This document shows, piece by piece, positions 1,761-17,443 of a DNA stretch of 20,993 nucleotides. The translations under genes and the position numbers were made by a program. Position 1 is the first letter of the stretch; each line of letters opens with the position of its first letter. The stretch comes from a virus. The stretch spans positions 1 through 20,993 of IMG/VR virus record IMGVR_UViG_3300021185_000840; one strand, written 5' to 3'. A model generated the notes under the pieces. It ran no database searches, was not told the origin of the DNA, and was given only the letters and a program-made list of their open reading frames with translations.

Positions 1761-2486
1761 ATGGCTACTTATGTATCTCTAGTTAATGAATTACTAAGAC
1801 GTATGAACGAGGTTACACTTGACATTGCGGGTGATGGCTTTGATACGGTACGTAATGTTCAGGCTCTAGCTAAAGATGCAGTCAATAGTAGCGTTAGACT
1901 TATTCTACAGGATGGTCAGGAGTGGCCCTTCCTTAAAACAACGTATACCCAAACACTAACGGCAGGCACACGCCTCTACGACTTCCCTTCCGACTACTCA
2001 AGTACTGACTGGAACACCTTTTATATTAAACAACTATCCTCTAAGAGTAATGCACCTCGTAACTTAAAGGTAATTACCTATGAGGACTACATTCAAAACT
2101 ATAGAAGTATAGACGACACGGGTGACACAGTTAACGGGGATGCTTCCCCCTCTGTTGTGTACCAAACTTATGGTCCTGCCTTTGGAGTTACACCTGTACC
2201 GGATGCAGCCTACGAAATTGAGTATGTGTACTGGTCTTACCCTGACGACATGGCAGTGTACAATGACGTGTGTATCATACCAGACAGATTCAAGCATGTT
2301 CTTATTGATGGCGCTATGATGTTTATGATGCGTTTCCGTAGTAATGAGCAGAGTGCGTCTATTCACCAGAATAACTTTGATGATGGTATTAAGTCTATGC
2401 GCCGTGTACTTATGGATGACGCAATAGAGATTAGATCCACAGCTGTATCAAGGGGCTTTAACTCTGCGTTTGGTGGTGGTGCCTGA
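1761..2486 (+). CDS. Head-tail adaptor / tail tubular protein A-like
   Basis: This 241-residue protein probably forms the ring joining the portal to the tail nozzle, like T7 gp11. The N-terminus (YVSLVNELLRRMNEV) and following helical stretch with AKDAVNSSVRLILQDGQEWPF resemble known tail-tube A and adaptor proteins. A central LYDFPSDYSSTDW segment and an FKHVLIDGAMMFMMRFR helix near the C-terminus also fit. The length is close to the family's roughly 200 residues. AGGA at 1750-1753 gives a normal ribosome site. The gene lies between capsid and nozzle genes, exactly where gp11 sits in T7-like phages. Its stop overlaps the next start (TGATG), suggesting coupled translation. The assignment rests on order, length and general resemblance. 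Confidence 0.65.
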   Translation: MATYVSLVNELLRRMNEVTLDIAGDGFDTVRNVQALAKDAVNSSVRLILQDGQEWPFLKTTYTQTLTAGTRLYDFPSDYSSTDWNTFYIKQLSSKSNAPRNLKVITYEDYIQNYRSIDDTGDTVNGDASPSVVYQTYGPAFGVTPVPDAAYEIEYVYWSYPDDMAVYNDVCIIPDRFKHVLIDGAMMFMMRFRSNEQSASIHQNNFDDGIKSMRRVLMDDAIEIRSTAVSRGFNSAFGGGA

Positions 2487-4024
2487 TGGCTGATAACCTA
2501 GCCTCCTTTAAAGTCTTCTGCCAAGGCGGTCTAAACACCAGTCGTGATGTGCTGTCACAGGGTGAGACGCAACCGGGTTCAGCTATCTCGTTGATTAACT
2601 ACGAGCCTGCTGTTACTGGTGGTTATCGCAAGATGAGTGGCTACAGTAATGACTATGGTACAGTTCCAGGGTTCGGTGATGTTTTAGGTGTCTGTGTAGC
2701 TAATGGTGTGAATGACGGTATCCTTGCCGCACGGTATGATACAGGAAGCACTGACTATCTGTATTACTGGAATACTTCTACATCTGCTTGGGTAACTATT
2801 ACTACACCTGCCACTGTTGATGTTTCAACTTACCCCAAGGTACGCTTCTCTCGTTACAACTGGGGTACATCTAAGGTAGTTATTACGGATGGTGTGAACC
2901 CTGCTGCAACATATGATGGTACGACTTACACTCAGCTTACTAGCACTAACGCTCCCAGCGCACCTAAACTCTCACATGTATTTAAGAACCACTTATTCTT
3001 AGCAGGTGATGCTACTGAGACTACTAGCCTGTGGTTCTCTGCACCCTACAATGAGATTGACTACGATCCTGCAGACGGTTCAGGTGTCATTAACGTAGGC
3101 TTCCCTATTGTTGCCATAAAGTCATTTCGTGACGCACTCTACGTCTTTGGATCAAACAATATCCGTAAGCTTGTAGGTAACAACATAGCAGACTTTGTAC
3201 TTGAAGAAGTTACAGATGACTTGGGTTGTGTAGCTACCGACAGTATCATTGAGATAGGTGGGGACTTAATCTTTTTATCTCAGGATGGTCTGCGGCCTAT
3301 TAGCGGTACGGATAAAATTGGTGACGTTAATCTTGAGACTGTCTCTAAAGACATTCAGTCTATCTTTACTGATGTAGTTTTTGATGTAGACTTAGACAAG
3401 CTGAACGCCGTAGTTATCAGACAGAAGACACAGTTTAGGTTCTTCCTTGGTGCAGCTGATGGACAGGGTATCATCGGTGGCTTTAGACAGACACCTAATG
3501 GTTTGCAGTTTGAGTATGGACAGATGCTTGGTGTCTTTACTACATGTGCTACCAGTGGTTACATTGGTCAGGATGAGTTTGTAGTACACGGTGATAGCAA
3601 CGGTAAAGTACACCGCCAAGAACAAGGCAACTCATTTGATGGTGAGGATATATTTAGTGTATTCCAGACACCCTTCTTTCACATGCAAGACCCAGAGCAA
3701 CGTAAGGTGTTTTACACTGTAGCTACGTACTTACGTTCTGAGGGTGACAATGAACTAATCATGTCTGCTCTTTACGACTACGAAGACGTAGACACTTTGC
3801 GTCCTACAAACTTTACACTAACAACACAGGGCGCAGCTGCATATTATAACGAAGCCTTGTACAACAGCACAGCAATCTTTGACGGTAACCCTGCCCCTGT
3901 ACGGCGCACAAACATTTCAGGTTCAGGTATGTCAGCATCATTTAAATACGTAACCAATGACACTAACGCCTCCCACAGTATCCAAGGCATCGTGGTGACA
4001 TTCGGAGTAGGAGACAGGTTATAA
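2486..4024 (+). CDS. Tail nozzle / tail tubular protein B-like structural protein
   Basis: This 512-residue protein is rich in beta-strand-like segments. It begins SFKVFCQGGLNTSRDVLSQG and includes GSAISLINYEPAVTGGYRKM, a sequence style common at the start of podovirus nozzle or stabilisation proteins. Later segments such as HLFLAGDATETTSLWFSAP, ALYVFGSNNIRKLVG and LIFLSQDGLRPI recur as strand-turn-strand units, which suggests a beta-propeller-like body. T7 gp12, which has this position and role, is larger (about 790 residues), so this is a shorter version. The start overlaps the previous stop by one base. It would form the distal tail tube to which fibres attach. Exact equivalence to gp12 is inferred from position and fold style. 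Confidence 0.65.
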   Translation: MADNLASFKVFCQGGLNTSRDVLSQGETQPGSAISLINYEPAVTGGYRKMSGYSNDYGTVPGFGDVLGVCVANGVNDGILAARYDTGSTDYLYYWNTSTSAWVTITTPATVDVSTYPKVRFSRYNWGTSKVVITDGVNPAATYDGTTYTQLTSTNAPSAPKLSHVFKNHLFLAGDATETTSLWFSAPYNEIDYDPADGSGVINVGFPIVAIKSFRDALYVFGSNNIRKLVGNNIADFVLEEVTDDLGCVATDSIIEIGGDLIFLSQDGLRPISGTDKIGDVNLETVSKDIQSIFTDVVFDVDLDKLNAVVIRQKTQFRFFLGAADGQGIIGGFRQTPNGLQFEYGQMLGVFTTCATSGYIGQDEFVVHGDSNGKVHRQEQGNSFDGEDIFSVFQTPFFHMQDPEQRKVFYTVATYLRSEGDNELIMSALYDYEDVDTLRPTNFTLTTQGAAAYYNEALYNSTAIFDGNPAPVRRTNISGSGMSASFKYVTNDTNASHSIQGIVVTFGVGDRL

Positions 4025-4025
4025 C

Positions 4026-6440
4026 ATGGCAGGTTACACTAGACAGTCAGTAGCAGACATTATCGCTAATGCGGTTATTAAAGCTGCACCAGTAAACGCT
4101 GAGTTTAACGCTATTCGTGATGCTTTTAATAACAGCACGGGTCACAAGCATGACGGTACATCTTCTGAGGGTACTTACGTTCCCCTCATTGCAGACATTG
4201 ATGCTAATAATAAAGTAGTAGTAGATACAACTAACAATCGTGTCAGTTTTTACTCAGAGGTAGGTGGTTCTGCAGTAGAGCAAGTACGCATTCAAGACGG
4301 TGCTATTGTTCCTGTAACGGACAACGACATTGATCTGGGTTCGTCTGGGCTTAAGTTTAAGAACCTCTACGTTGATGGTATCGGTGAGATTGGCTCTACC
4401 ACTATCCTTGGCGGTACTATTGATAACGTAGTCATTGGTGGCACTACTCCAGCTGCTGCAGACTTTACTACAATGGATGCAACAGGTAATGTTACTGTTG
4501 GTGGTACGTTTGCTGTAACGGGTACGTCTGCACTAACAGGCACTACTACCATTACGTCTGCTGACATCAACTCTGGTGCAATGGACAACACGGTTATTGG
4601 TAATACTACACCTGTTGCAATCACAGGTACTACTATTACAGGTACGTCCCTTGTTGGCCCCCTCACGGGAGATGTTACTGGGGATGTCACTGGTGACGTA
4701 ACAGGCGATGTTACAGGAGACCTTACAGGTAACGTAACAGGGAATGTAACGGGTAACTTAAATGGTATTATTGGTGCTACTACCCCTGCTGCTGGTAGCT
4801 TTACAACTGTATCGACATCTGGACAAGCAACCTTGGCGACTGTTGATATTAACGGCGGTAGCATTGACGGTACTATTATTGGAGCATCAACTGCTGCAGC
4901 TATAACAGGTACTACCATCACAGGTACTAGTCTTGTAGGGCCGCTTACAGGTAGTGTAACAGGTAACGTAGCAGGTAATGTTACTGGCAATCTTGTGGGC
5001 AACGTAACTGGTAATGTTACTGCAGCAAGTGGCACTTCCTCATTCACCGATGTGACCATTAATGGTACACTGAACATGAATGCTGGTACTACCTCCACTA
5101 TTACTAACCTTACAGCACCTTCTAATGACCTTGACGCAGCCACAAAAAAGTATGTGGACGATGAAGTAGCTGGCCTTGTGGACTCTGCCCCCGGTACACT
5201 TGATACGTTAAACGAACTAGCTGCCGCTTTGGGTGACGATGCAGACTTTGCTAATACTATAACAACTAGCATTGCCACTAAGTTACCACTGGCAGGTGGT
5301 ACAATGACTGGCCCTATTGCTATGGGTACATCTAAGATTACTGGCTTGGGTGATCCAACTGCAGCACAGGACGCAGCAAGTAAAAACTATGCTGACACTA
5401 CTTTCTTAGGTAAAGCTGGTGGCACTATGACTGGTGCTATCAGTATGGGTAGTGCTAAGGTTACTACTACCTATACACCTACAAATGGTCCTGATCTCAC
5501 TAACAAGACATACGTAGATAGCATTGTAGGGTCTGGTGCTTCTGCAGCTTCTAGTGCTACAGCTGCTGCTTCTTCCGCTACAGCCGCTGCTACCAGTTCA
5601 ACTAACGCAGGTAACTCTGCTACTGCCGCTGCAAGTTCAGCTACATCTGCCGCTGCATCATACGATAGCTTTGATGATCGTTACTTAGGTGCTAAGTCTT
5701 CCGCTCCTGCGCTAGACAATGATGGCGATGCACTTATAGCTGGTGCTTTATACTTCAACACTACTACTGACATCATGTACGTTTATGGTGGCTCTGGTTG
5801 GCAGGCCGCTGGAAGCTCTGTGAATGGTACATCTAACCGTAATACTTACACTGCTACCGCTGGTCAGACTTCCTTTGCTGCAACGTATGACCCCGGCTAT
5901 GTTGATGCCTACCTCAATGGCGTAAAGCTTATTAATGGTACAGACTTCACTGCTACAAGCGGTACATCTATTGTGCTGGCATCAGGTGCAGCGGTAGGTG
6001 ATACTGTAGACATTGTAGGTTTCGGTACATTTGTAGTAGCTGATACTTATACTAAGACACAGGCAGATGCTCGTTACTTACTAGAGTCAAACAATCTCTC
6101 AGACTTAGTTAGTGCAGCAACAGCAAGAACAAACCTTGGCCTAGCTATAGGATCAGACGTACAGGCTTATGACGCAACTATTCTTGTTGATGGAGATATT
6201 GGTTCTACTGTTCAGGCTTATAACACTAACTTAACTGCTATAAATCAGGCACTAACAACAACGTCTAGTCCAACCTTTGCTACAGCAAACATAACAACGG
6301 CAGACTTTGGTAACTGGACTGTCACAGAGTCAGGTGGCTCACTGTACTTTGCTACAGGCGGCACAAACAAAATGAAATTAGACGCAAGCGGCAACCTCGA
6401 TGTTGTCGGCAACGTCAATTCTAACGCAACAATCACCTAG
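4026..6440 (+). CDS. Large repetitive tail fibre protein
   Basis: This 804-residue, mostly low-complexity protein has the architecture of a trimeric phage fibre. The N-terminus (about 1-45, ending GHKHDG) is a probable attachment domain. Residues 183-245 and 276-325 hold two copies of a module containing ITGTTITGTSLVGPLTG, each followed by TG(D/N/S)V repeats. Two ATKKYVDD/ASKNYADT-type trimer motifs follow. An Ala/Ser-rich segment at about 502-545 is likely coiled coil. A globular region with YFNTTTDIMYVYGGSGW and VDAYLNGVKLINGTDF comes next. The end is LDASGNLDVVGN, a common finish for marine-phage fibres. No S74-type self-cleaving chaperone domain is visible. AGGAG at 4009-4013 serves the start. 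The next gene's ribosome site lies directly after this stop. Confidence 0.8.
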   Translation: MAGYTRQSVADIIANAVIKAAPVNAEFNAIRDAFNNSTGHKHDGTSSEGTYVPLIADIDANNKVVVDTTNNRVSFYSEVGGSAVEQVRIQDGAIVPVTDNDIDLGSSGLKFKNLYVDGIGEIGSTTILGGTIDNVVIGGTTPAAADFTTMDATGNVTVGGTFAVTGTSALTGTTTITSADINSGAMDNTVIGNTTPVAITGTTITGTSLVGPLTGDVTGDVTGDVTGDVTGDLTGNVTGNVTGNLNGIIGATTPAAGSFTTVSTSGQATLATVDINGGSIDGTIIGASTAAAITGTTITGTSLVGPLTGSVTGNVAGNVTGNLVGNVTGNVTAASGTSSFTDVTINGTLNMNAGTTSTITNLTAPSNDLDAATKKYVDDEVAGLVDSAPGTLDTLNELAAALGDDADFANTITTSIATKLPLAGGTMTGPIAMGTSKITGLGDPTAAQDAASKNYADTTFLGKAGGTMTGAISMGSAKVTTTYTPTNGPDLTNKTYVDSIVGSGASAASSATAAASSATAAATSSTNAGNSATAAASSATSAAASYDSFDDRYLGAKSSAPALDNDGDALIAGALYFNTTTDIMYVYGGSGWQAAGSSVNGTSNRNTYTATAGQTSFAATYDPGYVDAYLNGVKLINGTDFTATSGTSIVLASGAAVGDTVDIVGFGTFVVADTYTKTQADARYLLESNNLSDLVSAATARTNLGLAIGSDVQAYDATILVDGDIGSTVQAYNTNLTAINQALTTTSSPTFATANITTADFGNWTVTESGGSLYFATGGTNKMKLDASGNLDVVGNVNSNATIT
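4665..4765 (+). repeat. Tandem 12-base repeat coding TG(D/N)V
   Basis: About eight diverged in-frame 12-base units, roughly ACNGGNGAYGTN, encode TGDVTGDV then TGNVTGN from residue 214 of the large fibre. A shorter, more diverged second block lies near 4945-5025. In-frame units allow fibre length changes without frameshift. Confidence 0.8.
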
Positions 6441-6455
6441 TAGGAGTACACGAAG

Positions 6456-7994
6456 ATGGCGATTAAAGTAGGCGGTACAACCGTCATAAACGATAGCAGG
6501 GCGCTTAATAACATTACCTCAGTAGATGCAACCACTGTAGCTGCCTTGGGTACGGCTGGTGTTGGTGGTGGAGGTGGTAGCTTTGATGCAGTAGCTTCTG
6601 GTACTATTGCTAATGGCGCTCTTGTGTCTTTAAATTCAGATGGCACAGTCTCTACAACTGCAGCTGCTTTAGGAGACAATTCTACTTTTTATAGTGGCAA
6701 CCTAGATGATCTTGTTTCTGTATACGACAGCAATTCTAATAAAGTAGTAATTATGTATATTGCAGCCGATTTATCTAGCCGCCCTTATGCTGTGGTAGGT
6801 ACAGTAAGCGGAACTTCTATTTCTTTTGGTACTGCCGTTAAGTTATCAGATAACTACATGACTTGGCTCGCTATGACCTTTGATAGTAATTCCAATAAAG
6901 TAGTAGTAGCTTTTAGAGATAATAATGATCAAGATAAAATAAGGTCTATGGTGGGTACAGTAAGTGGAACCTCTATTTCTTTTGGTTCCATTGTAGATGT
7001 GACACCCGGCTCCTCAAGCTCTCATTATACTCAACTAGCTTTTGACAGTAATTCAAACAAAATTGTAATTGCCTATAGAGAATACAATGCTGATAACGGG
7101 ACTTATGCAAGCAAGGCGAATGTTGGTACGGTAAGTGGAACTTCAATATCCTTTGGGTCAGCAGCAACCTTTGAAAATAGTAGGTGTGAGCCTACTTCTA
7201 TTACTTTCGACAGTAATTCTAATAAAGTAGTCATACTCTTTAAGCACGATGTCGATGGTGACGATGGGAAAGCTGTTGTTGGTACGGTAAGTGGAACTTC
7301 AATATCCTTTGGCACTCCAGTCACTTATACGACAGGTAATGGGGATGACGGTGTTTGCACATTTGATAGTAACAGCAACAAAGTTGTTATTGCCTTTCAA
7401 GATAATAATAATAGCAATTATGTATCAGGAATAGTGGGTACAGTAAGTGGAACTTCTATTTCTTTTGGTAGTCCTGTTGCGATTGGTGCATGGACCGGAA
7501 CTAATAGGAGTATAACTTTTGACAGTAGCAGGAACAAAATTTTTATTAACTATAAAGCTGGTAACCCTGAAAGGGGTGAAGTAGTTTCAGGAGTTGTTAG
7601 CGGAACTTCTATTACTTTTGGCCTACCTGTTATTTATCACACTGGAAGTTTTGAAAGAGCGGATACTATCTATGACCCTACAACCACTAATGTTGTTATA
7701 TCTTATAAAGATCAAGCTGCTGGTAGCAATGGAATATCTTTAGTAGCAAATCCTAATGGACTTATAAACTTTTTTAAGTGGATAGGTTTAGCCTCTGAAA
7801 GTATATCTAATACATCTACTGGCACTATAAATGTTTTGGGTGGAATTAATGAAAGCCAATCTGGTCTGTCCGTCGGGTCTACTTATTATATAAATGGTGA
7901 CGCTGCACTAAGCACTACAGTCACTACTGGACGTGAAGTAGGTAAAGCGTTGTCAGCTACAAAGTTGCTTATTACCCAAGGGAGTATATCGTAA
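6456..7994 (+). CDS. Tail fibre protein with a seven-repeat probable beta-propeller
   Basis: This 512-residue protein starts with MAIKVGGTTVINDSRALNNI, an N-terminal tag frequent in marine-phage fibres, then a GVGGGGGS hinge near 35-42. Seven repeats follow, each opening with (F/Y)DSNSNKVVI or a decayed form, at residues 90, 142, 196, 251, 303, 355 and 406. The spacing is 51-55 residues. Five carry GTVSGTSISFG, and a sixth has GVVSGTSITFG. Seven units of this length strongly suggest a seven-bladed beta-propeller, a good receptor-binding head. The C-terminal domain (about 430-512) has GGINESQSGLSVGSTYYI and ends LLITQGSIS. AGGAG at 6442-6446 is the ribosome site. The gene looks more AT-rich than its neighbours. 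The fold is inferred from periodicity. Confidence 0.75.
   Translation: MAIKVGGTTVINDSRALNNITSVDATTVAALGTAGVGGGGGSFDAVASGTIANGALVSLNSDGTVSTTAAALGDNSTFYSGNLDDLVSVYDSNSNKVVIMYIAADLSSRPYAVVGTVSGTSISFGTAVKLSDNYMTWLAMTFDSNSNKVVVAFRDNNDQDKIRSMVGTVSGTSISFGSIVDVTPGSSSSHYTQLAFDSNSNKIVIAYREYNADNGTYASKANVGTVSGTSISFGSAATFENSRCEPTSITFDSNSNKVVILFKHDVDGDDGKAVVGTVSGTSISFGTPVTYTTGNGDDGVCTFDSNSNKVVIAFQDNNNSNYVSGIVGTVSGTSISFGSPVAIGAWTGTNRSITFDSSRNKIFINYKAGNPERGEVVSGVVSGTSITFGLPVIYHTGSFERADTIYDPTTTNVVISYKDQAAGSNGISLVANPNGLINFFKWIGLASESISNTSTGTINVLGGINESQSGLSVGSTYYINGDAALSTTVTTGREVGKALSATKLLITQGSIS
6798..7621 (+). repeat. DNA-level repeats in the propeller gene
   Basis: Copies of a 32-base core coding GTVSGTSISFG start at 6798, 6954, 7125, 7281 and 7437, with a diverged copy at 7590. 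Copies at 7125 and 7281 are identical to each other. Copies at 6798, 6954 and 7437 share a different set of silent bases. The DNA similarity exceeds what protein selection requires. Confidence 0.8.
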
Positions 7995-8509
7995 TGACCA
8001 AAGCAAGAGACAATGAGTACAGGAATAGGACCACGGGTGAAGTAAAAACACAAGAGGAATTGATTACAGATAACCTTCATATGTCTTTTCCTAGTGTCTG
8101 GCAGGAAGATGAGTTGGAGGCACTTAACATTGATGCAGTCCTGTCAAGCCCTGCTGCCACCACAACACAATATCAGGACTCCGTGCGTGATGGTGTTGAG
8201 CAGAACAGTGATGGAGATTGGGTAGAGAAGTATATAGCCCGTGATATGTTTTCTGATACTACCGATGAAAATGGAGTGACAACCACTAAGTCAGAGCACG
8301 AAGCTGCATATCAAGACACGCTAGACGCTAGTGTAGCTGAGAGCAACCGCACTAAGCGTTATGGATTGCTGTCTGAGACTGATTGGACAGGTATGTCAGA
8401 TGTAACAATGACTGCAGATATGACAGCCTATCGTCAGGCTTTACGTGATATTACAGATCACGCTAGCTGGCCTAACCTTGACGATGCCCACTGGCCTACT
8501 AAACCTTAA
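7994..8509 (+). CDS. Tail fibre assembly chaperone-like protein
   Basis: This 171-residue protein ends in a segment typical of phage tail assembly chaperones (Phage_tail_APC-like). From about residue 118 it reads RYGLLSETDWTGMSDV, then YRQALRDIT, and finally HWPTKP at the C-terminus. Such proteins help fold or trimerise fibres. The N-terminal two thirds is acidic and not recognised. The first six residues (MTKARD) match the start of the following fibre gene at both protein and DNA level, which is odd for a chaperone. The start overlaps the previous stop (TAATG), with AGGGAG at 7979-7984 as ribosome site. Its place directly after the propeller fibre suggests that fibre, or the next, is its client. 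If incorporated in the virion it could instead be a minor fibre part. Confidence 0.65.
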   Translation: MTKARDNEYRNRTTGEVKTQEELITDNLHMSFPSVWQEDELEALNIDAVLSSPAATTTQYQDSVRDGVEQNSDGDWVEKYIARDMFSDTTDENGVTTTKSEHEAAYQDTLDASVAESNRTKRYGLLSETDWTGMSDVTMTADMTAYRQALRDITDHASWPNLDDAHWPTKP

Positions 8510-8520
8510 GGGATAACCCA

Positions 8521-9321
8521 ATGACAAAAGCAAGAGACCTAGCAAACCTAATCGCAGCGGGTAACCCTCTTTCCGATGGTGCTATCACTGTCGCAGAGAT
8601 TAGTGGACTTACAGCTTCAGAGACAGAGCTTAATAAGCTAGATGGTGTAACGGCAAGCACAACAGAGCTTAATAAGCTAGCTGGTCTGACTTCTAGTACC
8701 GCCGATCTGAACAACGTAGCTGGTATTAACTCCTCAGTACAAACACAGCTTGATGCTAAAGCACCTCTTGCAAGCCCTACCTTTAGTGGTACAGTGACAG
8801 CTACATCATTCTCAGGGAATGGCGCTAACCTTACTGGAGTTGATTCTCTTCCCTCTCAGTCTAGTCACTCTGGAAAATTTCTTACTACAGACGGTACAAA
8901 TCCTACATGGGCTACCTTAGAGGCAGAGACAGAAATAACCTCTAATCGTTCTTACTGGATTACTGATGTATCTAATACTAATCAAATTGTTGGTAAGTTT
9001 AATAAAGTACAGGTAGTACCTGCAAACACATCAATCACAGGTACATGGCAGATAGCATCAGACGCTGAGGTTTATATTACTGAGGTAACATCTATAGACA
9101 GCTTTGGAGAGTATCTAGAAGGTAATCAAACTATCAGTGGTAATCACATCTTTTACAAACAACTAGAGGTACTGGACGGATCAACAATCACAGTTACAGG
9201 CACTATAGAAGGATTCGGAGATAGTCCTGTAGCGGGTACAAGTACTTCGGCCCTAACGTCTGCAGATGTTACAACTTTGATTGACGGTTCTATGGTATTT
9301 GAATCATTTGGAGGCGCTTAA
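8521..9321 (+). CDS. Tail fibre / virion structural protein, MTKARDL type
   Basis: This 266-residue fibre-like protein begins MTKARDLANLIAAGNPLSDGAIT, then has three repeats of the kind TASETELNKLDGV, TASTTELNKLAGL and TSSTADLNNVAGI (about residues 31-70). Next come LDAKAPLASPTFSGTVTATSFSGNGANLTGV, a standard trimeric-fibre shaft segment, and a SGKFLTTDGTNPTWATL motif. The C-terminal half (about 145-266) is a beta-rich, probably globular tip with repeated short Ile/Thr/Gly strands. A weak ribosome site, AAGGGA at 8508-8513, spans the previous stop. It lies in the fibre block with small structural genes after it. It is likely a second fibre, or one segment of a branched fibre. Confidence 0.7.
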   Translation: MTKARDLANLIAAGNPLSDGAITVAEISGLTASETELNKLDGVTASTTELNKLAGLTSSTADLNNVAGINSSVQTQLDAKAPLASPTFSGTVTATSFSGNGANLTGVDSLPSQSSHSGKFLTTDGTNPTWATLEAETEITSNRSYWITDVSNTNQIVGKFNKVQVVPANTSITGTWQIASDAEVYITEVTSIDSFGEYLEGNQTISGNHIFYKQLEVLDGSTITVTGTIEGFGDSPVAGTSTSALTSADVTTLIDGSMVFESFGGA

Positions 9322-9322
9322 A

Positions 9323-9844
9323 ATGGCTACAACAACACACTTTCTACAGGCTTACGGAACTGGCGGGACCAGTACTGCCCAATTCAAAGATGCTATTACT
9401 ATACCAACAGGTAAGATAGCTAAAGTAAAAATTACATCTTTAACAGTACAGAACACTACAAGTGCCGCTGAGAACTATAATTGGAGAGCTGGGATATACT
9501 GTGTTACACCTCGGCCCGATGGGACTTCAACTGAAGTACTGCTAGATAATTATAGAGCAAGTAATTATCAAAGCAACTTTTCTCATTATGTGATCGTCCC
9601 TTATAAACACGGAGATGGTCATACCTCTGGTAATGTTCAAAACAGCTCCGGTCAAGACACTTACAATGACTACAGCCCTAATACTATTCAAGGTAACAAT
9701 GGTGCGTCAGGTATGTTCAATTCAGAATTTTACTTAAATCAAGGAGAGATTCTAAGGTTTATGTGGCGGTACGATGTTGGCGGCATGACAGATTATGAAT
9801 TTTTCTTACGGGGCTTTTACTTACTAGAGGACGTTACATCATGA
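9323..9844 (+). CDS. Small virion/fibre-associated protein, function unknown
   Basis: I choose the ATG at 9323 (173 residues) rather than 9281. GGAGG at 9310-9314 is ideally spaced for 9323, and the upstream extension overlaps the previous coding end in another frame. The protein starts MATTTHFLQAYGTGG and has beta-strand-like stretches with KIAKVKITSLTVQNTTS and YHVIV-like aromatic strands. It ends with an aromatic FLRGFYLLED segment. I do not recognise a family. Its size, composition and place suggest a jelly-roll-like fibre tip or decoration protein. It lacks the VDxI start of the next three genes. The stop overlaps the next start (ATGA), so translation is probably coupled. Confidence 0.6.
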   Translation: MATTTHFLQAYGTGGTSTAQFKDAITIPTGKIAKVKITSLTVQNTTSAAENYNWRAGIYCVTPRPDGTSTEVLLDNYRASNYQSNFSHYVIVPYKHGDGHTSGNVQNSSGQDTYNDYSPNTIQGNNGASGMFNSEFYLNQGEILRFMWRYDVGGMTDYEFFLRGFYLLEDVTS

Positions 9845-10605
9845 GTAAACTAATTGTAGACGATATAGAACTGGCGTCAGGTGACCTTTTGGGTCTTCCT
9901 AATACGGTAGAAAATAATAAGCTACTACCTGTCTCTAATAATTCTATAGGGTCTGGGGAGAGTATTCCATCTGCTAAACACACACTGGTACATGACTTCG
10001 CTGTAGGCTCTCAGCCCACTTCCTTAACCTACAACTTCTCTACAGACAGCTCAAATATTATAGCTATCCGTATTATGTTTTCCCAGATGCGTATTACTGC
10101 GAGTACGGCTTCAACTGATATTGGATATGGCATTGGTAGTTCTACGCTAGATGTACCTGCAAGTCATACCAACTATCAAAATAGGCCTATACGTAATTGT
10201 TATTTAAGTTTTGAGGATCAGGCTCAGTCGCAAGGTACGGCCTTTGGTCGATTTGATAATAGTTATATGTACAGTATGGGTGGACCTAGAGGAGGTACAG
10301 GAATGGATATAAACAAAACACACCCATTAGATCAGTGTGAAAACAGTGTACACCACATCCTTTTTGATAAAAACTCGGTAGACGGTTACGTTTTTAAGCA
10401 GATGGGTAAAACTAGTAAATTATCCGGTAGTGGTAACAACATGAGACATGCTTCTTATGGAAGTCATTGGAACTACAGTTCAACTAGCAATAACACAAGT
10501 GATTACCCAGGACACCCTACCCCTTTTACAAAAATAGGTTTTATCATACCTTCTAATGTTACTGTTTATCAGGGTCAAATATCTATCATGGAGTACTTAA
10601 AATGA
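9841..10605 (+). CDS. VDxI-type small fibre protein 1
   Basis: This 254-residue protein begins MSKLIVDDIELASGDLLGLP. The next two genes share the pattern M(S/R)Kh(I/K)VDxI followed by SG, so this is probably a common attachment tag. After a linker the body has beta-like strands (LTYNFSTDSSNIIAIRIMFS), a Gly-rich MYSMGGPRGGTGMD segment at about 143-156, and an aromatic/Ser/Asn-rich stretch. It ends FIIPSNVTVYQGQISIMEYLK. I do not recognise the body. It starts on an ATGA overlap, with AGAGG at 9826-9830 upstream. It likely forms a receptor-binding or accessory fibre tip, but this is inferred from context and composition only. Confidence 0.6.
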   Translation: MSKLIVDDIELASGDLLGLPNTVENNKLLPVSNNSIGSGESIPSAKHTLVHDFAVGSQPTSLTYNFSTDSSNIIAIRIMFSQMRITASTASTDIGYGIGSSTLDVPASHTNYQNRPIRNCYLSFEDQAQSQGTAFGRFDNSYMYSMGGPRGGTGMDINKTHPLDQCENSVHHILFDKNSVDGYVFKQMGKTSKLSGSGNNMRHASYGSHWNYSSTSNNTSDYPGHPTPFTKIGFIIPSNVTVYQGQISIMEYLK

Positions 10606-11318
10606 GAAAGGTCATAGTCGATACCATCCAGACATCGTCCGGGACAGCATTTGACGTGTTTGAATCTCAAGGTACAGCAGGTAAGCTGGTAACAAGGGAT
10701 GCTGCTGATGGTGTTTTTAAAGACGCTGTTATACCAAAGGATACAAAGGTCGAGCATGTAGGTGCGTTAGGTACTGCAGCAGTATCTTTTGACTTTCCAC
10801 TTCGTAAGGGAGACAATTCCTTAAAGAGTAATTTTACGTTTGACATCAATGTTAATTTTGATTCTATGTTCGTAAGTCCAGCTGATAGTAACAACAGAGA
10901 ACTCCGATTTAAGGTAAAAGACTCAGCAGGTAGTTTTCTTACAGTATCTAGTTCTTATGTCAGGCCTAATATGTTCGATAATAGTTTTAGTGGAACTACA
11001 GCGGGTAATGGTACAACCCTTCAGTATGCTCCTATAAGGACTCGGTACATTAACGATAGTATTTACAATAGCCAATTTACAGCAGACGTTACTTTTTTTG
11101 CTAACCCCAGTAACTCCGCTCAACATTATCTGATGGTAAAGTATGCAGGCCAAGTCGGTCATGTTGGTTCCTCTAGTGGTATTGGTGTTTTAAATGGATT
11201 TTCTTGGGCTAGGTTTGATTCGGGTACTCCTGCAACTCTAGTCTTAGAAACTGACGCTCAAGCGGGAAATAATGAGGAGTCATTATACATAAATAATATC
11301 ACGGGGTACTTATCATGA
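10602..11318 (+). CDS. VDxI-type small fibre protein 2
   Basis: This 238-residue protein starts MRKVIVDTIQTSSG, aligned with the N-termini of its neighbours. A short linker with GKLVTRDAADGVFKDAVIP leads to a beta-rich body with many Ser/Asn/Asp residues and aromatic strands, such as FTFDINVNFDSMF and FTADVTFF. No enzymatic motif is visible. It starts on an ATGA overlap with GGAG at 10590-10593, and ends on an ATGA overlap with the next gene. The body shares little visible sequence with the flanking paralogues, which suggests a shared tag fused to different binding domains. Confidence 0.6.
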   Translation: MRKVIVDTIQTSSGTAFDVFESQGTAGKLVTRDAADGVFKDAVIPKDTKVEHVGALGTAAVSFDFPLRKGDNSLKSNFTFDINVNFDSMFVSPADSNNRELRFKVKDSAGSFLTVSSSYVRPNMFDNSFSGTTAGNGTTLQYAPIRTRYINDSIYNSQFTADVTFFANPSNSAQHYLMVKYAGQVGHVGSSSGIGVLNGFSWARFDSGTPATLVLETDAQAGNNEESLYINNITGYLS

Positions 11319-12007
11319 GTAAAATTAAAGTAGATGTCATACAAGACACATCAGGTAATCAAATGAAATTCCCTTCAACCCCCTTAAGTGATGGGTATCT
11401 AGGAGTTTCTTCCTCTGGAGTAATGACTTCTCATCAATTAGTTGAAAGTACAACAGGTCTTACTCTTTATGACGCCCGTTCTTCTGGTGGCAATAGTGCA
11501 GTTAATGTACTAAAAGAAGTTCCCAGTGAAATTAAAACAAAAATGTTAGCTGGTGTTTCTTGTACAGTTATTATGTCTGGAGTTTCCTATCTTGGCGGTG
11601 GTATGTACTTTACAGACGCTGCTGGTACACCTCAAAGATGGGAATACGGCAGGAATATGTGGAGGTACAAAAGAGAAAACAGCGACACTTACGGGTATGA
11701 AACCTCTCTCACTCATTGCCGTGCTATGTTCCAGGGTCTGTCGGACCAGAATGCACCTACGGCAGATCACGCTGGGGGTTGTGTAATTAACTTTAGATTC
11801 ATTCAAAATAGTTCTGATGGCAATGGCCGTACAGTAAACTACGAAGCGCTAAGTCTGTCAACTACTGCTGGCATTAGACCCGACTCAAACAGTACTTTAG
11901 GTACTTCGGAAGGTAGAATGCCTGTAAATGATACCTTCACACACTTAAACTTTGTTGGTACACGTATTACTGCAAACGGTTATATTAAATTGTTCTTACA
12001 AGAGTAA
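11315..12007 (+). CDS. VDxI-type small fibre protein 3
   Basis: This 230-residue protein opens MSKIKVDVIQDTSGNQMKFP, again the VDxI...SG tag. It is followed by LSDGYLGVSSSGVM, similar to the linker seen in many fibre proteins. The body holds aromatic and charged stretches (MWRYKRENSDTYGYE, about 112-126) and Gly-rich turns. It ends THLNFVGTRITANGYIKLFLQE, which resembles in layout the C-terminus of the gene at 9841. It starts on an ATGA overlap with only a weak GGGG site (11303-11306) upstream, so coupling to the previous gene probably matters. It is the last gene of the fibre block. Role and fold are inferred. Confidence 0.6.
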   Translation: MSKIKVDVIQDTSGNQMKFPSTPLSDGYLGVSSSGVMTSHQLVESTTGLTLYDARSSGGNSAVNVLKEVPSEIKTKMLAGVSCTVIMSGVSYLGGGMYFTDAAGTPQRWEYGRNMWRYKRENSDTYGYETSLTHCRAMFQGLSDQNAPTADHAGGCVINFRFIQNSSDGNGRTVNYEALSLSTTAGIRPDSNSTLGTSEGRMPVNDTFTHLNFVGTRITANGYIKLFLQE

Positions 12008-12014
12008 CTAAGAC

Positions 12015-12362
12015 ATGGAAAACGTAAAGCTTCCTATAGCTCTTGTTGCCGCTATGGCTGTCCAGCTTGCGGGTGGTGTATGGTGGGTATCTCAACAGGC
12101 ATCTACCATCTCTAGCCTAGAAGAGACTGTCAGTCAGCTAGGTTCACGTATGGCTATTGAGGACAACATTAACCTTAAGCGTGACGTTGAAAGCAATGGC
12201 GTAGAGATACAGTACGTGTGGGGCGACATAGAAGAGTTGTGGGATGAGCTTGCCTCTATGACCTTGGCTATCGGTGAGATCAATAAACTCAAGCAACGTA
12301 TAGCTGTTATGGAGAGTGAGCTACGATACATCAACAGAGACCATAGGGATATGGCTAAGTAA
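12015..12362 (+). CDS. Small membrane protein with coiled coil, possible holin or spanin component
   Basis: This 115-residue protein has one hydrophobic segment at about 5-25 (KLPIALVAAMAVQLAGGVWWV). The remainder is charged and helical, with coiled-coil character at about 30-60 and 85-113. This layout (N-terminal anchor plus long helix) resembles inner-membrane spanins and some phage holin-associated proteins. The specific family is one I associate with marine phages but cannot name with certainty. AAGAG near 12000-12004 precedes the start. It is followed closely by another single-pass membrane protein. It may act in lysis or in anchoring at the membrane, but there is no enzyme motif and no lipoprotein partner gene to confirm a spanin pair. 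Confidence 0.6.
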   Translation: MENVKLPIALVAAMAVQLAGGVWWVSQQASTISSLEETVSQLGSRMAIEDNINLKRDVESNGVEIQYVWGDIEELWDELASMTLAIGEINKLKQRIAVMESELRYINRDHRDMAK

Positions 12363-16480: not shown

Positions 16481-17443
16481 ATGTCATTCAAGAACCTAAT
16501 GATAGCTGGCAGTCTTGCTAAAGCATACAACGATCAAGTTGCAGAGAAGAAGGCTAAGGTTGCGGAGATCAATGCTGTAAAGCGTGAGTACTTATTTAAG
16601 ACTGGTCTGAAAAATATTCAGGATCGTAGGGAGTCCCTTAAGGCTTCAAGGGCAAGGGTTTCCCAAGCTAAAAGGTTTGGCTTCTCAACTAAGTCTGCAA
16701 GAGCACTTGAGATGGCTGGTCAATTAGAGTTTGAAATAGACAAGGTAGCTACCTTAACAAAGAATGGTAAGCTGTCAGAGAACTATGTAGAAACTTTATC
16801 AGCATTTCTGGACAAAAAGGTAGAAGGGGACGAGGCTCTTGCTGCTGCAGTCTCAAGGGGTTTGCAAGGTGAAAGCTTCAAGACAGAAGAGGACATGTCC
16901 TTGGGTCTTATTAATGCAATGGGCGACCTCAATGAACTCCAAGAACAGTTCTTAAAAACTACTGAGCCCTCTGGGAGGGCAGGTCTACCAGCCTTTAAGT
17001 ATAGCTCCACTAAGGGGCCACGTATTGAACTGTCAGACCGGAAGTCTATCCAAGCACAGCTGGCCTCATCCCTCAGTACAATGTACGATACTAACTTCTC
17101 TATTAACAACGTAGGTGATGTTGTGTTCAGCCAGGACGCCGCACCAGATGTTCAAATACTTTTTAATAACCTTACTGAAAAGACGGTAGAGTTAGCAGAA
17201 GATCCTACAAACAGTTTCAGCCCAGTGTCTGCTCTAAGTACGGTTATTGGTAGCATTGAAAACAGTTCTAACGTACCTGCAGTCACTGTTCTTGAAAAGA
17301 TAGACGAGGCAATTACCACACCCAACTTTAACTGGGAACCTTTCAAAGCTACCACAGGTACTGGTACAGGTACTGGTACAGGTACTGGTACAGGTACTGG
17401 TACAGGTACTGGTACAGGTTCTCCGACAGAGGATATTGGGTAA
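16481..17443 (+). CDS. Probable internal virion protein with C-terminal (TG)11 tail
   Basis: This 320-residue, mainly helical protein starts with a basic region (KNLMIAGSLAKAYNDQVAEKKAKV and on to about residue 70, rich in Lys/Arg). It continues with a helical middle containing LSAFLDKKVEGDEALAAAVSRGL. A less charged, strand-containing part follows at about 180-285. The final 29 residues are eleven Thr-Gly pairs (292-313) and SPTEDIG. The tail is probably a flexible linker. AGAGG at 16468-16472 is the ribosome site. Its stop overlaps the next start (TAATG). It lies beside the largest core protein and is probably packaged with it. I recognise no family, and the virion role is inferred from position. 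Confidence 0.55.
   Translation: MSFKNLMIAGSLAKAYNDQVAEKKAKVAEINAVKREYLFKTGLKNIQDRRESLKASRARVSQAKRFGFSTKSARALEMAGQLEFEIDKVATLTKNGKLSENYVETLSAFLDKKVEGDEALAAAVSRGLQGESFKTEEDMSLGLINAMGDLNELQEQFLKTTEPSGRAGLPAFKYSSTKGPRIELSDRKSIQAQLASSLSTMYDTNFSINNVGDVVFSQDAAPDVQILFNNLTEKTVELAEDPTNSFSPVSALSTVIGSIENSSNVPAVTVLEKIDEAITTPNFNWEPFKATTGTGTGTGTGTGTGTGTGTGTGSPTEDIG
17354..17419 (+). repeat. Perfect 12-base tandem repeat coding Thr-Gly pairs
   Basis: Five exact copies of ACAGGTACTGGT (17354-17413) plus a half copy (17414-17419) encode (TG)11. Exact copies imply recent slippage. Units are a multiple of three, so copy-number change alters length, not frame. Confidence 0.95.

Follow-up and report, generated by a model that had tools for sequence, protein, structure and literature searches.

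The window, the whole stretch of 20,993 nucleotides that was analysed, belongs by its sequence to a marine phage of HMO-2011 type with a short tail. Its tail nozzle protein (2486–4024) is 91% identical with that of the Roseobacter phage CRP-13 and 78–81% identical with those of CRP-2, CRP-9 and CRP-1, and the structural gene order is the same as in these HMO-2011-type roseophages (nozzle identity 78–91%), whereas their tail-fibre region has other genes and lacks the tagged triplet described below (PMC8528129). The layout runs from the coat protein through the tail genes and the tail fibre (4026–6440) into a variable region (6456–12007), and conserved genes follow from 12015. The last genes of the variable region are three, named here T1, T2 and T3, and they are preceded by the gene g5. 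The main tail fibre, which in relatives too follows the tail nozzle gene and is conserved, contains short repeats (GDVTGDVTGDVTGDVTGDLTGNVTGN). The N-terminus of the gene that follows it recurs in the loci L035, L079, L080 and L081, the MTKARDLA anchor of the gene beginning at 8521 is recurrent in relatives, and the chaperone encoded between these two genes probably serves the tail-fibre region. Further downstream, the gene at 16481–17443 encodes a long C-terminal Thr-Gly repeat run (TGTGTGTG...), and the opposite strand mirrors it with a PVPVPV reading frame. The features of the tail-fibre region are collected in the table.

Table. Features of the tail-fibre region in the window
Feature	Position	Strand	Basis
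Main tail fibre, 804 aa, N-terminus MAGYTRQSVADIIANAVIKAAPVNAE kept in relatives	4026..6440	+	PHROG tail fiber matches, E 3e-34
Tail-fibre-region gene, N-terminus MAIKVGGTTVI(D/N)DSR, body with repeated VGTVSGTSISFG units	6456..7994	+	Translation
Tail assembly chaperone, APC type	7994..8509	+	PF16778, 41.9 bits (cut-off 26.6); PHROG tail fiber assembly
MTKARDLAN-anchored fibre gene, ending in the module base FibreCT (about 8842–9318)	8521..9321	+	
g5, 173 aa, without tag, conserved module member	9323..9844	+	53% identity with L147, 26% with L158
T1, putative tip protein, 254 aa, tag MSKLIVDDIELASGD	9841..10605	+	L147 ortholog, 31% identity
T2, putative tip protein, 238 aa, tag MRKVIVDTIQTSSGT	10602..11318	+	L147 ortholog, 32–35% identity
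T3, putative tip protein, 230 aa, tag MSKIKVDVIQDTSGN	11315..12007	+	L147 ortholog
V-D-x-I tag of T1, 14 codons	9841..9882	+	Left-out tag HMM, 11.2 bits, E 3e-4
V-D-x-I tag of T2	10602..10643	+	Left-out tag HMM, 16.5 bits, E 7e-6
V-D-x-I tag of T3	11315..11356	+	Left-out tag HMM, 29.2 bits, E 7e-10
ATGA stop-start overlap g5/T1	9841..9844	+	Sequence; likewise in L147 and L158
ATGA stop-start overlap T1/T2	10602..10605	+	Sequence; likewise in L147 and L158
ATGA stop-start overlap T2/T3	11315..11318	+	Sequence; 8-nt overlap in L147, 1-nt gap in L158

A sequence-only reading had placed three consecutive genes with a common VDxI start at this site, and both the coordinates and the N-termini were found to be right. 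The tag common to T1–T3 spans 14–20 residues. When residues 2–16 were compared without gaps (BLOSUM62), the three pairs scored 32, 32 and 26, far above the other gene pairs of the window, of which the next best scored 11 (mean −10, sd 9 over all 171 pairs). When a tag HMM was made from other viral contigs, with T1–T3 and their close relatives left out, it recovered exactly T1–T3 among the 19 genes of the window and returned nothing below E = 1 among the other 16. The bodies behind the tag do differ, as had been proposed; without the first 50 residues the pairs within the window give alignment scores like those of shuffled sequence (z −0.4 to 0.2), and profile-profile comparison of T1, T2 and T3 gave an alignment limited to tag and stem. 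The scans of T1–T3 against Pfam and PHROG gave no credible family, isolate phages searched at DNA and protein level with T1, T2, T3, L147 T3 and L158 T1 yielded no real match, and the single-protein scans of IMG/VR with T1–T3 found none. The location in the tail-fibre region agrees with the tail setting that had been assumed. The ATGA overlaps are real at all three joints of the T genes, that of g5 with T1 included, and the coupled translation read from them is suggested by the overlapping genes; gene overlap is ordinary in the window (1-nt overlaps occur at 2486, 7994, 15904 and 17443).

The occurrence of the tag apart from these bodies was monitored in viral contigs. A strict DNA pattern of the tag found zero viral contigs, and a looser pattern found 71. 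Counted over all loci analysed, with the window and the contigs of further scans taken in, 71 loci carried 119 tagged proteins of more than 85 residues falling into 26 body clusters. The tag is common in viral contigs and is borne by many unrelated bodies. One tagged gene was present in 31/71 loci, two in 31/71, and two or more in 40 loci. Because the loci elsewhere mostly have one or two tagged genes, the tag alone implies no set of three. A recurring adjacent pair of larger tagged genes (about 440–510 aa), starting with MTS(K/T)IKV(D/N) and MSTIKVDKIE, was seen in L091, L097, L110, L114, L119, L120, L125, L127, L131, L140 and L146 and represents a two-gene version of the tagged array. These counts bear on a reading in which T1–T3 are three separate homotrimeric receptor-binding proteins that dock on the fibre base or on the preceding protein and give several specificities per virion. 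Since tagged proteins with different bodies are single or paired in most other contigs, a tagged protein can evidently work without two partners, and fibre and C1q-type heads are usually homotrimers.

The surroundings of T1–T3 added a feature that had not been noticed before, namely that on alignment evidence they close a module of five parts with the order FibreCT - g5 - T1 - T2 - T3. The same order recurs in two other phages, L147 and L158, with g5 a protein of ~170 residues in each of the three phages; scans for further carriers found no fourth, leaving the window, L147 and L158 as the known ones, and a search of bacterial genomes with FibreCT found none. The FibreCT of the window is 75% identical with the fibre end of L147 and 55% with that of L158, and has a conserved final segment (LTSADVTTLIDGSMVFESFGGA in the window); the window FibreCT compared here had S for V as its first letter, a difference at one end that should leave these figures unchanged. 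The carrier of FibreCT is the main fibre end in L147, the end of the fibre gene adjoining the capsid gene in L158, and the separate MTKARDLAN gene in the window. Because FibreCT ends a different gene in each phage, the module base has been joined to three different anchors while the downstream order is unchanged. The L147 nozzle has about 61% identity with those of roseophages CRP-738 and CRP-235, and L158 has another type of capsid protein, closest to the Anabaena phage A-4L type at 29%. A PF16778 chaperone lies before the module in the window and after T3 in L147 (7973–8257, 55.9 bits), and the 94-residue gene after T3 in L158 looks like a chaperone of the same type. Between the L147 tail chaperone and the next structural-looking gene there is a gene (8388–8843), just after the chaperone, with a GNAT-type acetyltransferase-like sequence.

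The relationship of the module proteins across the three phages was assessed by Smith-Waterman alignment of g5 and by full-length comparison of T1–T3 with shuffle controls. Against the window, g5 gave z of 60 for L147 and 16 for L158, T1 gave 37 and 12.8, T2 gave 50 and 4.9, and T3 gave 25.6 and 8.9, respectively. T3 of the window and L147 are 31% identical overall and 43% over the first 108 residues. Thus, T1, T2 and T3 of the window and L147 are, as judged from these alignments, each orthologous by position. For L158 the alignments support orthology of T1 and T3, and T2 is weakly assigned, mainly by position, its z of 4.9 being about equal to the 4.8 that T1 and T2 of L158 give with each other. 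The identity between window and L147 in the first 20 columns is 0.85 for T1, 0.70 for T2 and 0.70 for T3, and goes down to 0.05–0.25 in the mid-body. The tags are position specific in these two phages, with MSKLIVDDIELASGD in T1, MRK(V/I)IVD(T/S)IQ(T/S)SSGT in T2 and MSKIKVD(V/I)I(Q/E)D(T/S)SGN in T3, and this specificity is less clear in L158. In the T1 tag, 15/15 residues are identical between window and L147 and the codons differ; among the identical residues of the first 20, the same codon is used in 7/17 for T1, 4/14 for T2 and 7/14 for T3. Because so few identical tag residues share a codon, it is selection, and not a recent exchange of DNA, that has conserved the tags.

These results bear on two simpler readings of the triplet. 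The sequence-only reading had proposed one docking site at which three tips are interchangeable, giving virions with mixed tips or tips that work as a swap cassette, which would be in line with the common tag, the many unrelated bodies behind the tag elsewhere and the hypervariable region. However, the tags and stems are position specific between window and L147, the tag DNA has diverged at silent sites, which indicates that the tags were not recently shuffled, and order and membership are kept in three lineages along with FibreCT and g5. Because fixed order, membership and positional orthology recur across phages, T1–T3 do not appear to be freely interchangeable tips, and we regard such a site as improbable. 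Each protein resembles the L147 protein of the same position and not its neighbours; the exchangeable unit is the whole module. A simple recent duplication of one tip gene, without division of labour, could explain the common tag, the similar length and the similar strand layout of the T1 and T3 models, but within a genome the bodies show only the similarity expected of shuffled sequence, and the triplication took place before the modules of the window and L147 parted. Being largely refuted by the positional orthology of window and L147, recent duplication was rejected as very improbable. T1, T2 and T3 are most likely distant paralogues that differ from one another and serve as tip proteins in a single receptor-binding module.

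The tail-fibre region that holds the module is hypervariable, and its flanks match relatives. The closest relative having downstream sequence (L004) is 95.9% identical over 6.1 kb, and the match ends at 6076. The number of matching relatives per 500 bp falls from 84 at the nozzle to 0 at about 6.5–8 kb, and matches resume at 12015; beyond the MTKARDLAN anchor, at 8.75–9.9 kb, L147 is the only matching relative. In the relatives the region is filled with other small genes having recurrent N-termini (MAIKVGG..., MTKARDLA..., MPYIGNQPAP..., MATKKKMLQAAAG... and MANTFKNAV...). The DNA identity between window and L147 is 72% for FibreCT against 50% for the nozzle, which is consistent with transfer of the module. 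We also noted that the chaperone gene (7994–8011) and the next gene (8521–8538) have near-identical first 18 bases, ATGAC[C/A]AAAGCAAGAGAC, encoding MTKARD. The chaperones of relatives start like MSEYRNRTTGEV, and for this reason the MTKARD prefix on the chaperone resembles a scar left by recombination at an anchor tag. The MTKARDLAN anchor (8520–8585) has 89% identity to L005 across only 66 bases, beyond which the sequence differs, and the alignments read as if the anchor tags were exchange joints. Host-recognition islands of marine phages are known to adjoin the fibre and to have C1q and lectin-like genes (PMC3909814), and the distant-family Alteromonas phages A5 and V22 share a host recognition module of fibre and chaperone (PMC10579305). 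The A5/V22 module thus sets a precedent for whole-module sharing between distant phages, although it consists of a tail fibre and its chaperone and not of three co-inherited tip proteins (PMC10579305).

The possible fold of the tip proteins was approached with AlphaFold2 models of T1 and T3, which were made with 2–3 sequences and are of low confidence (pLDDT 53 and pTM 0.55 for T1; pLDDT 58 and pTM 0.57 for T3). Both low-confidence models are mostly beta, with short strands at residues 8–10 and 16–18 and a long last strand, and share the Foldseek BFVD matches M1UGT0 (cyanophage SS120-1), A0A4D6BK89 and A0A6J5KQ81. Among solved structures, the T3 model best matched galectin-8 (VIA-align Z 6.7 over 123 residues at 3.5 A, a middling score on a model of pLDDT 58), and the T1 model matched a jelly-roll (best Z 5.4) and TNF-like lectins (5.0 and 4.9), also middling at pLDDT 53. 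The models suggest that T1 and T3 carry beta-sandwich heads, but fall short of proving that the two have a fold in common. Matches to toxin binding domains were taken as generic lectin-like folds only. In cyanophage SS120-1 (L159, 14076–16383) there are four adjacent small fibre-type genes (CYYG_00025–00028), one of which is annotated as C1q and starts with MSTIKTTNI; of the four, M1UGT0 is a top fold match of both models, and M1U3B6 is a weaker match of T1. The tag may also be seen as the first strands of an ordinary trimeric beta fibre stem and not as a docking element, a reading compatible with the one preferred here. The similarity running past the tag (e.g. 126 residues in L147 T1-T3, E 6e-6), the two short strands of the models and the similar N-terminus that begins the stem-plus-C1q protein of SS120-1 speak for it, but it leaves the position-specific 15/15 conservation of the T1 tag unexplained if taken alone, and we consider it possible at rather less than even chances.

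When T1–T3 were compared with known multi-protein tails, partial likenesses were found. The branched tailspike complex of the Ackermannviridae places on one tail several receptor binders whose N-terminal domains are related and whose bodies differ; these tailspikes are large depolymerases with named N-terminal adaptor domains. T1–T3 differ in being short, and general Pfam scans found no such adaptor domain in them. The C1q and lectin-like genes of marine phages, as in SS120-1, are likewise small stem-plus-beta-head genes beside the fibre in a hypervariable region, whereas a fixed three-gene set with a common fibre base is not described for them (PMC3909814); C1q Pfam models gave no match at E up to 1 in the proteins of the window (T1–T3 included), L147 or L158. 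The virophage DSLV2 has three consecutive same-strand tail genes for proteins of 196, 205 and 247 aa (PMC12724248). Its tail proteins co-purify 1:1:1, are reported as a heterotrimer forming fibres of ~16 nm (J Virol 2025, PMC12724248), are more alike by position across genomes, and have a conserved and a variable receptor-binding part (PMC12724248). T1–T3 are also consecutive, on the same strand and of comparable length (254, 238 and 230 aa), as are their L147 and L158 counterparts, and their positional similarity exceeds that within a genome, clearly for all three proteins of window and L147 and for L158 T1 and T3, and weakly for L158 T2. The DSLV2 proteins differ in carrying the phage collar domain PF07484, in having no V-D-x-I tag described and in belonging to a virophage and not to a tailed phage. 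PF07484 gave no match at E up to 1 in the proteins of the window, L147 or L158; because this collar domain is absent from T1–T3, DSLV2 is a likeness and not a case of membership.

The co-purification of the DSLV2 proteins at 1:1:1 therefore makes the heterotrimer a concrete option for T1–T3, and in the literature searched a heterotrimeric viral tail is described solely for that virophage. By this analogy T1–T3 might form an obligate 1:1:1 heterotrimeric fibre tip in a tailed bacteriophage, with three different heads round one axis and a common tag and stem, inherited and transferred together with its base; we hold this for plausible, at somewhat below even chances. Three separate homotrimers, given the same chance, would be expected to show single loss or single swap of binders, but every one of the three lineages has the full set of three, with near-equal length and fixed order. 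As to geometry we tentatively and narrowly favour the 1:1:1 heterotrimer; nearly the same likelihood goes to three homotrimers that share the base.

Because the same order and fibre end occur in two other phages, T1–T3 give the impression of a single host-binding tip that is inherited together, and not of spare parts. We propose that they are probably tail-tip receptor-binding proteins that form a fixed, co-assembled and co-inherited set and have their base in common. The weak fold models and the small number of known carriers, three, speak against this proposal. It is built on gene order, its recurrence, positional orthology (strong in L147, partial in L158), tag conservation and the variable region. 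Each tip protein would consist of a conserved N-terminal tag and stem of about 45–60 residues, the stem presumably trimeric, followed by a fast-diverging C-terminal body that is probably a beta-sandwich head. The three proteins would be made together by coupled translation and, with help to the module from the tail assembly chaperone, would assemble as a position-specific set at the fibre end of the virion, where the heads may contact the host surface. The module would then move between phages as a block, with its base fused to the recipient's own N-terminal anchor. The usual description of a tail fibre tip is a homotrimer of one protein. If the proposal is true, a fixed set of three different tip proteins would move as one unit among phages whose capsids differ, and three chains together could make up, and diversify, host binding.
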